31,250 nucleotides of DNA from a virus, in IMG/VR virus record IMGVR_UViG_3300008339_000299, positions 1-31,250 of that record, one strand, 5' to 3'. Below the pieces are notes generated by a model. It was given only the letters and a program-made list of their open reading frames with translations. It was not told the origin of the DNA and searched no databases. A program made the position numbers and the translations under genes. This document shows positions 16,086 to 29,058 of the stretch, piece by piece; the first letter of the stretch is position 1, and each line of letters starts with the position of its first letter.

Positions 16086-16299
16086 CTGTTATCATTTCGC
16101 TCTCCAAATCTATTCTAGCTAGTATCTGAAAGGCATCCTCTATAGCTAATCTTTTAGTAGCTGCGGCATTCTTAAGCTTGTCGGCAGAAAGGTCTCCCTC
16201 CATACCCGTAATAATTTTATCCTCAGCAACCTTAATAAGCTCATCAACAGCCTTGTATCCAGCGTCAATTATTCTCTGCTTTATATCGTTTGTTGTCAT
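16021..16299 (-). CDS. Small terminase subunit candidate (TerS)
   Basis: A 92-residue, helical, charged protein placed directly before TerL, with the reading frames overlapping. It starts MTTNDIKQRIIDAGYKAVDE and continues through a Lys/Ala-rich helix (KLKNAAATKRLAIEDAFQIL) to a basic tail (GGFAERRSK). I recognise this as a family conserved before TerL in Bacteroidetes phages. Position, size, helical character and basic tail fit a DNA-recognising small terminase, but no helix-turn-helix can be assigned with confidence. Start overlaps the stop of the upstream GroES-like gene (ATGA type), so the three genes are coupled. Confidence 0.5.
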   Translation of the reverse strand: MTTNDIKQRIIDAGYKAVDELIKVAEDKIITGMEGDLSADKLKNAAATKRLAIEDAFQILARIDLESEMITGDHKPSSKNEDKGGFAERRSK

Positions 16300-16859
16300 A
16301 GCTTAATTTTTATGTTACTGGTAAACATCCTGTACAGCTTCTCTTCGTTAATGTAGAAAGGGTACTCGCTATCTGGCTCGAATGCTATCTCATCACCTAC
16401 GGATAATCCTAAGTCAATTAGCTCCTGGTTTATGTACCTTATCTTTCCGATAAGTGGTTCCTCTGTACCTGGCTTTGCTAGGTAGTAATCCTTAACCTCT
16501 ACTGGCTCTATGAAGCAATACTTTGAGTAGCACTTCCACTGCTCGTTACTGAAGAACATAAAGAACTGGTCCTCATCAACAAAGAACATGTCGTCCTTAA
16601 AGAAGTTGTGACTGCTCTGCTGTCTACCCCTCATGTCATAGTAAAACTTAAAAACATTGTGGTGAACTAAAAGCAGGTCACCAACCTTAACCTCCCCATC
16701 ATATCCTATTGGTGTAGACACAACCTCTGCAAACCTGTTAGAGGCCATGTGGTCCTCCTGAGATGTGCTTGTTATGAAGTTGATTTCACCTATTGACTTG
16801 ATGTTATCGTATCGCCTTCCTTTTAGGGGCTTTACAATAAATGAAAATGGTGATCTCAT
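16296..16859 (-). CDS. Putative tandem GroES-like (Cpn10-fold) protein
   Basis: A 187-residue protein that reads as two GroES-like barrels in a row. First unit, about 6-104: FIVKPLKGRRYDN, a loop of about 20 residues in the mobile-loop position, AEVVSTPIGYDGEVKVGDLL (44-63), then a closing strand FFVDEDQFFMFF that lines up with the GroES end pattern (LIMSESDILAIV). Second unit, about 115-182: FIEPVEVKDYYLAKPG, PLIGKIRYINQEL, LSVGDEIAFEPDSEYPFYI and EEKLYRMFTSNI. The VKVGD and SVGDE turns match the conserved KVGD of GroES. It sits two genes before TerL and starts four bases inside the 75-residue gene upstream (ATGA). A client-specific co-chaperonin or a virion protein that borrowed the fold are both possible. 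Inference from manual alignment only. Confidence 0.45.
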   Translation of the reverse strand: MRSPFSFIVKPLKGRRYDNIKSIGEINFITSTSQEDHMASNRFAEVVSTPIGYDGEVKVGDLLLVHHNVFKFYYDMRGRQQSSHNFFKDDMFFVDEDQFFMFFSNEQWKCYSKYCFIEPVEVKDYYLAKPGTEEPLIGKIRYINQELIDLGLSVGDEIAFEPDSEYPFYINEEKLYRMFTSNIKIKL

Positions 16860-27837: not shown

Positions 27838-27972
27838 CTATTTCTTTTTTTTAGTTTTTCCTGCTTTTGATAAAGCAATTGCAATTGCTTGCTTTTGCGG
27901 TTTTCCTGCTTTAATCTCCGTTCTTATATTCGAAGATATTATTTTCTGAGATGATCCTTTTTTTAACGGCAT
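27838..27972 (-). CDS. 44-residue basic protein, [10 protein letters not shown] family
   Basis: [20 protein letters not shown] followed by [20 protein letters not shown] and a run of Lys. The 'MPLKKG.S.K.IS.NI...............GKPQKQA.AIAL..AGK' pattern is familiar from small proteins of many phages; it probably forms a helix (residues about 25-36) between basic ends. It sits two bases from the 110-residue gene upstream and two bases from the next gene. Function unknown. Confidence 0.75.
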
Positions 27973-27974
27973 AA

Positions 27975-28307
27975 CTATACAATTACCTTGTCTCTAACAT
28001 CTAACGCCCATGCTCCAGAGTCATAGCACGTGTAAACGTATACCTTATTAACTAAAAGAACTCCCTCAAGTGCTCCGCATATAACCTGAGTTCCTAGCAC
28101 CGCGTTAGGGTAAGAGAAGTTAAGGCTAGCGTTAGAAAGAGGAATTGGTGTTAGGTTTTGAAAAATTAACGAGTTAAACACGTACGCCTTTAAATCACCA
28201 ACGCTAAAGTTCTTAGTTATTCTATTAGGAGTATCCTCGTCTGTTCCGATTAAAATATCATCCTCCTGTATATTTGTATCTAATGGATACAGAGCAATTT
28301 TAGTCAT
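27975..28307 (-). CDS. 110-residue virion protein with MTKI-type N-terminus
   Basis: I chose the ATG at 28307 ([20 protein letters not shown]). A longer frame reaches 28457 but would run through the divergent promoter and across the plus-strand gene. The N-terminus matches that of the 268-residue fibre protein: MTKI, YP, DT, D, IG, D, TKNF at the same spacing. The C-terminal half is a beta-rich domain ([20 protein letters not shown]). It is the first late gene left of the palindromic promoter. Confidence 0.65.
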
Positions 28308-28322
28308 GTCGTTTATTTGTTT

Positions 28323-28330
28323 TATCTTTG
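28323..28330 (+). promoter_or_regulatory. -7 box TATCTTTG, plus-strand half of a palindrome
   Basis: Plus-strand TATCTTTG, 22 bases before the ATG of the winged-helix gene. It abuts its own reverse complement, forming the perfect palindrome TTATCTTTGCAAAGATAA (28322-28339). The two promoters face away from each other. Confidence 0.65.
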
Positions 28331-28338
28331 CAAAGATA
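28331..28338 (-). promoter_or_regulatory. -7 box TATCTTTG, minus-strand half of the palindrome
   Basis: Minus-strand TATCTTTG, 23 bases before the ATG at 28307. A TTG (28363-28361) lies 22 bases upstream, a possible -33 element. The two halves share no base but the polymerase footprints would overlap fully, so only one direction can be used at a time. Confidence 0.7.
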
Positions 28339-28352
28339 ATAATAAAAATTAA

Positions 28353-28814
28353 ATGAAAATCAAGAGTAATATCAGAAAGGCATACGATAGAAGGGAGCCA
28401 AGTAACGACTACCTGAAGTACTGGCGAGTGGTTCGTCAGTGGGCTAAGACCAAGCACAGTATATCAGCAGCAGACCTGGACATGATACTGTTCCTGTACT
28501 CAGAGAAGCTGTTCAACAGGCAGGACTTCGATGAGTTCTCCATGACAATGCACTGGGATACAGCAAGGTTCAACAGGATGCTTGCCGATGGATGGGTAAC
28601 AATATGGCGAAAAAGAGTAGGCCAGGAGGCAACCTTATACGAGATATCATTCAAGGGTAAGAGCCTTTGCCGATCTGTGTATAGGAAGCTAAACGGTGAA
28701 GAGCGGATATCCGATAACTACCAGAACAATCCAATGTACGCAAAAAATGCGTCGTACACCAACAAGAGGTATAGACGCATTATTGAAAGAATGAATAACC
28801 CTAAAACACGATAA
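28353..28814 (+). CDS. Putative winged-helix DNA-binding regulator
   Basis: The only plus-strand gene: 153 residues, basic. Residues about 35-105 (SISAADLDMILFLYSEKLFN, then RFNRMLADGWVTIWRKR and TLYEISFKGKSLCRSVYRKL) form helix-helix-helix-wing as in MarR/PadR-like winged helices; the C-terminus (NPMYAKNASYTNKRYRRIIE) is a basic tail. I recognise the family from aquatic phages but know no function for it. It faces the late operon across the palindromic promoter and ends 14 bases inside the end of groES, tail to tail. Its codons are richer in G and C than those of the neighbouring structural genes. A role as a switch of late transcription is inference. Confidence 0.6.
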   Translation: MKIKSNIRKAYDRREPSNDYLKYWRVVRQWAKTKHSISAADLDMILFLYSEKLFNRQDFDEFSMTMHWDTARFNRMLADGWVTIWRKRVGQEATLYEISFKGKSLCRSVYRKLNGEERISDNYQNNPMYAKNASYTNKRYRRIIERMNNPKTR

Positions 28815-29058
28815 CCACGTCCTTTTCAGAGATAAGTGTAAGCTGCTCACCATTTAGGATCATAGTGTAGCCAGCACGCTTATCGTAATAAATTTCATCA
28901 CCCTCCTTAATTGTAAGTACCTCCGTGCCAGTATTCACCACGGTGGCCTTCTTGTACCTGATCTTGTCAGACTCCTCGCCAGAAAGAACAAGACCAAAGT
29001 CGGTCTTGATCTGTTCATCAATTGGCTTAATAATTATGTTCTTTCCTATTGCCTTCAT
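28801..29058 (-). CDS. groES: Co-chaperonin GroES
   Basis: An 85-residue Cpn10: MKAIGKNIIIKPIDEQIKTD, a mobile loop with GLVLS (about 22-26; the usual hydrophobic tripeptide that contacts GroEL), ATVVNTGTEVLTIKEGDEIY (37-56) and the ending TLISEKDVVIVF. It is some ten residues shorter than bacterial GroES, mainly through a short loop before the KEGDE turn. It lies one base after groEL (groEL-groES order is the reverse of the bacterial operon) and converges on the winged-helix gene with 14 bases of overlap. Confidence 0.9.
   Translation of the reverse strand: MKAIGKNIIIKPIDEQIKTDFGLVLSGEESDKIRYKKATVVNTGTEVLTIKEGDEIYYDKRAGYTMILNGEQLTLISEKDVVIVF

Follow-up and report, generated by a model that had tools for sequence, protein, structure and literature searches.

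The window, our term for the whole stretch of DNA that was analyzed, is a 31,250-base virus record. Its minus strand encodes portal, large terminase, and virion proteins, GroES, GroEL, and a crAss-type muzzle C-terminal domain. By its terminase, the nearest annotated record is Caudoviricetes sp. MW202828 (72%); further named relatives are Flavobacterium elemo phages, Cellulophaga phages, and Maribacter phages. Just one gene on the plus strand is plausible (28353–28814), and the other long plus-strand open reading frames are antisense to GroEL. The features at the junction between this gene and the late genes are as follows.

27975–28307, minus strand: 110-amino-acid protein without a PHROG or Pfam match, encoded by the gene that opens the late run
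28322–28339, no strand: palindrome TTATCTTTGCAAAGATAA, probable common core of two opposed promoters (same 18-mer in 43 IMG/VR stretches)
28323–28330, plus strand: putative -7 box TATCTTTG for rightward transcription of the regulator gene (TAnnTTTG positional peak)
28331–28338, minus strand: putative -7 box TATCTTTG for leftward transcription of the late gene run (TAnnTTTG positional peak)
28335, plus strand: predicted rightward transcription start (the sigma-A box is -12 to -5 in F. psychrophilum; PMC9723704)
28326, minus strand: predicted leftward transcription start (same basis; PMC9723704)
28353–28814, plus strand: 153-amino-acid protein, MarR-like winged helix by predicted fold (match to PHROG 17028, of unknown function)
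28801–29058, minus strand: GroES co-chaperonin, convergent with the regulator gene and overlapping its 3' end

The original prediction was that an 18-bp palindrome made of two back-to-back TAnnTTTG boxes divides the sole plus-strand gene from the late run, with both start codons 22–23 bases from a box. All of this is present exactly as claimed: TTATCTTTGCAAAGATAA is a perfect palindrome with TAnnTTTG on both strands and 0 bases between them, and we counted 22 bases from box to ATG rightward (ATG at 28353, plus strand) and 23 bases leftward (first base of the ATG at 28307, minus strand). The double-box palindrome at a divergent junction is confirmed; both boxes and the junction can be read directly from the DNA. 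The window contains one copy of the 18-mer, even if 3 mismatches are allowed, and we found no Rho-independent terminator beside it.

The double box TAnnTTTGCAAAnnTA did not arise in any of 100 dinucleotide shuffles of the window, and TAnnTTTG is mildly enriched in the window as a whole (50 observed versus 36.8 expected). A shuffled window is expected to hold 0.15 perfect palindromes with a length of 18 bp or more. The window has another such palindrome, AAGCAATTGCAATTGCTT (27873–27890), which corresponds to AIAIA codons in a 44-amino-acid gene (27841–27972, minus strand) and is explained by coding. Because of this expected number and the second palindrome in a coding repeat, the length of the palindrome is by itself weak evidence. 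The expected number is also what would favor a functionless chance palindrome, which is refuted by conservation (of the 43 viral copies, about 40 are at the same gene), and we give it a negligible probability. It is conservation in relatives that provides the strong evidence for the site.

TAnnTTTG is the sigma-A -7 box, spanning -12 to -5, in F. psychrophilum and flavobacteria (PMC9723704), and B. fragilis and F. johnsoniae have it as their consensus (PMC7366714). In a set of 615 distinct genes, taken from the window and from loci of related phages, TAnnTTTG peaks 37–24 bases before the ATG, with about 1 occurrence per position outside the peak. Because of this peak, we consider TAnnTTTG to be a working promoter motif in this phage group. 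The Bacteroidota sigma-A -7 box is found on both strands of the palindrome, and since this box spans -12 to -5, we predict starts at 28335 (plus strand) and 28326 (minus strand), which are separated by 9 bp. The -33 element (TTTG or TTG) is weak on both sides: leftward, there is a TTG at 28361–28363 (gap of 22), and the rightward match is weak as well. In F. johnsoniae, a -33 element could not be identified (PMC7366714). In Crassvirales, whose structural genes are related, the RNA polymerase of the host probably transcribes the late genes (PMC10136315); the host-type boxes before the structural genes here would be consistent with this.

We found the exact 18-mer in 43 IMG/VR stretches, and in about 40 of these, it lies between a relative of the 153-amino-acid gene and a divergent gene. 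In those stretches, the regulator gene is usually 13–14 bp from the 18-mer and the divergent partner varies; at many loci, the divergent genes to its left and right each begin 13–14 bp from the palindrome. This sample was selected by the palindrome itself, so we also collected relatives by their protein. Among 91 protein-found clusters (85% identity), a rightward and a leftward box lie within 8 bases of each other in 76, and another six have the flipped order. Similarly, the opposed boxes are back to back in 89 of 107 representative relatives and in the other order in 6. The flipped-order relatives retain one box for each gene. All four relatives with a 74–89% identical regulator carry the identical 18-mer, which bears out the expectation that related phages retaining the regulator gene keep the layout. 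In 1.0 Mb of DNA from relatives, we found 60 distinct back-to-back pairs (with a gap of 0–6) at the regulator gene versus 2 elsewhere.

The spacing of the boxes was not conserved. Among the 76 clusters, the gap was 0 (29 clusters), 1 (1), 2 (19), 3 (10), 5 (8), 6 (7), 7 (1), or 8 (1). On a tree of the 107 representatives, the gap state changed at least 38 times while both boxes stayed, so what is conserved is the two boxes and not the geometry of the palindrome. These changes, along with chromosomal copies of the 18-mer that have no regulator (described below), argue against the exact geometry being essential. We also noticed that the gap among relatives (loci L045–L124 and L482–L561) is 0, 2, 3, 5, or 6; a gap of 1 is very rare, and a gap of 4 does not occur.

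If a dimeric protein reads the palindrome, then the nn bases of its two halves should match. They are symmetric in 21 of the 29 clusters with a gap of 0 (versus 13.5 after permutation), in 2 of 19 clusters with a gap of 2, and in 2 of 10 with a gap of 3. For the clusters with a gap of 0, this excess goes back to few ancestral states, with at least 8 changes on the tree. We rejected covariation as proof of an operator because the excess is confined to this group and is inflated or confounded by ancestry. By these comparisons, the promoter boxes are kept and the operator geometry is not.

The regulator was described in the original prediction as a putative winged-helix protein, and structural modeling supports this. 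The AlphaFold2 model of the 153-amino-acid protein is a winged helix (pLDDT of 82), the top Foldseek match of this model is the E. coli MarR-operator structure (E = 7e-4), a VIA structure comparison of the model gives a Z score of about 9, and all of the leading structure matches are MarR-type regulators. We therefore describe its winged-helix MarR fold as predicted. The site resembles those of MarR-family regulators whose palindromic operator lies between divergent genes, in that a predicted MarR-like fold lies beside an 18-bp palindrome. Unlike members of that family, the protein is not placed there by sequence profiles: the best MarR chain has E = 0.083, which is not significant, there is no Pfam match, and Pfam and NCBIfam scores are below their cutoffs.

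MarR proteins bind palindromes of 16–20 bp and often regulate the divergent neighbor. The palindrome might then be mainly an operator for a dimeric MarR-like protein that acts as a repressor of its own gene and regulates the late promoter, with the boxes overlapping the operator so that the repressor blocks the promoters. The predicted fold, this habit of MarR proteins, and the symmetric nn bases of the gap-0 group would all fit, as would a gene of MW202828 that is annotated as "repressor protein" and has a longer inverted repeat across its flipped boxes. However, half-sites whose spacing drifts among 0, 2, 3, 5, and 6 and whose order flips would be unusual for a rigid dimer, the gap-2 and gap-3 groups have no nn symmetry, chromosomes use the same 18-mer without a relative of the regulator, and the single copy of the 18-mer in the window leaves no visible regulon. 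We consider an operator in this sense improbable. In MW202828 (locus L479, 2965–2995), the flipped boxes lie inside the repeat TGTCACAAA..TTTGTGACA, which precedes the annotated repressor gene and is possibly an operator in that phage.

A second use of the same evidence is to combine the two ideas: a two-way promoter to which the MarR-like protein binds as well, biasing its direction, as originally proposed. The points in favor of an operator apply here too, and furthermore the regulator gene adjoins the site in nearly all relatives. On the other side, the homologous genes of the cultured relatives phi38:1, Calle_1, and elemoF are co-directional with the late genes and have no divergent promoter, so the regulator's function does not require the palindrome site. 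Among named phages, we found no cultured relative with the layout. We regard this combination as possible but rather doubtful. The fuller proposal, that the MarR-like protein binds the core and sets the direction of the polymerase, giving a one-site switch between regulator and late genes that is retained throughout a large group of Bacteroidota phages, is somewhat more doubtful still. The original interpretation is supported in part. Binding of the regulator to the palindrome is plausible, and the direction switch is a plausible and testable idea, not a result. We also considered a serine-invertase site, as there is an invertase near the phi38:1 homolog, and rejected it because we identified none close to the palindrome itself. 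In the literature we searched, we found no published transcription starts at this locus, and phi38:1 lacks the divergent layout.

The 18-mer is also found in chromosomes. In the genome_contigs collection, 61 of 120 loci with the 18-mer (51%) are at divergent junctions; random positions fall at such junctions in 3.7% of cases, and single boxes do so in 19.8%. Nearly all of the loci listed are from Bacteroidota, and we found no relative of the 153-amino-acid regulator in the 120 loci. In a broad sample of the phylum, the 16-mer was present in just 1 of 148 genomes (and that genome was chosen for having it), so the layout is rare in hosts. Two related searches were set aside. A spacing preference across Bacteroidota was dropped because the 148 genomes gave too few hits (1, 0, 1, and 1 for gaps of 0, 1, 2, and 3), and other back-to-back pairs in host loci were no more frequent than in shuffles after masking of the selected 18-mer.

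Other phages have similar arrangements. A separate and unrelated pair of phage genes, encoding a nuclease-like protein and a 120-amino-acid protein (loci L291, L301, L333, and L342), has gap-0 boxes with unequal nn bases (TACTTTTG directly followed by CAAACCTA, 10 and 14 bp from the starts). We rejected the general pattern TTAnnTTTGCAAAnnTAA across IMG/VR: 74 of its 115 matches are inside genes and have random nn bases, which is little above the reversed control. Only the specific TC/TC form of TTAnnTTTGCAAAnnTAA is concentrated at one gene.

In a 235-kb jumbo phage (IMGVR_UViG_3300028887_000069; loci L305, 980–11160, and L264, 5442), about ten copies of TTAnnTTTGCAAAnnTAA are found in promoters. 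On one side only, a TTAAAAATTT-type element precedes them at a distance of about 20 bases, and most then have a AAAGAAAGGAG-like ribosome site. In this phage, TTAnnTTTGCAAAnnTAA looks like a phage-wide promoter motif. Because the upstream element is one-sided, the CAAAnnTA that lies downstream is not necessarily a second promoter. By analogy, only one direction at our site might be a real promoter, with the other half being an extended downstream element or due to chance. This sits poorly with the divergent genes whose starts, at many loci, lie 13–14 bp to either side of the palindrome, with the flipped-order relatives that keep one box per gene, and with the 51% of chromosomal copies that lie at divergent junctions. 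We think that a one-way promoter is quite improbable.

Overall, we have high confidence that the palindrome is the common core of a bidirectional promoter for the host's sigma-A RNA polymerase, at which the binding of two polymerases would be mutually exclusive. Each half of the palindrome would be a -7 box (TAnnTTTG) that is used by the host RNA polymerase with sigma-A: the rightward box would drive the MarR-like gene from about 28335, and the leftward box would drive the late gene run from about 28326. As these starts are about 9 bp apart and the footprint of a polymerase is tens of base pairs, only one polymerase could be bound at a time. Host polymerase would then compete for one site in two orientations, and transcription in one direction, when strong, should hold back that in the other. 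We infer the mutual exclusion from the predicted 9-bp separation and from the bidirectional promoters of E. coli (PMC12825309), and we likewise infer the activity of both promoters, their exact starts, and the timing of the late genes. A shared promoter core would explain the drift of the gap, the pattern of nn bases, the chromosomal copies, and the unrelated gene pair, and binding by the MarR-like protein on top of this is possible.

Bidirectional promoters have been defined as having opposed starts that are 7–25 bp apart (PMC10268837). The phage site has promoter elements on both strands within one site, lies between divergent genes, and has predicted starts within this range, much like the bidirectional promoters of E. 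coli and Salmonella; about 10 bp is one of the common start spacings in E. coli (PMC12825309, PMC10268837). In those bacteria, too, the promoters are between divergent genes and polymerases cannot bind together, as we expect for the phage. In E. coli, competition matters only once one direction is strong, and activating one direction then represses the other (PMC12825309). There, one and the same near-symmetric -10 element serves both strands, and starts are mostly 18 bp apart, whereas TAnnTTTG is not self-complementary and the phage site has two adjacent, non-overlapping boxes. Also unlike in E. coli, a phage family has kept the layout as one unit. Another comparison is the pLS20 plasmid (PMC4207663), which is described, in outline, as having a genetic switch with overlapping divergent promoters that regulates conjugation genes; its Gram-positive host and its use of DNA looping set it apart from the site proposed here.

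Bidirectional promoters have so far been described for E. coli-type -10 elements, and in the literature we searched, we found no description of ones built from the asymmetric Bacteroidota -7 box, as here. The natural series of gaps (0, 2, 3, 5, 6, and flipped) is suited to testing how competition between polymerases depends on geometry. The site is also a candidate control point for late genes in phages related to Pervagoviridae and Crassvirales, where late regulation is poorly known. Elsewhere in the window, beside the terminase, a 187-amino-acid protein (16296–16859) matches PHROG 13932 (GroES-like; 9e-20), so this phage may carry two GroES-type proteins besides GroEL.
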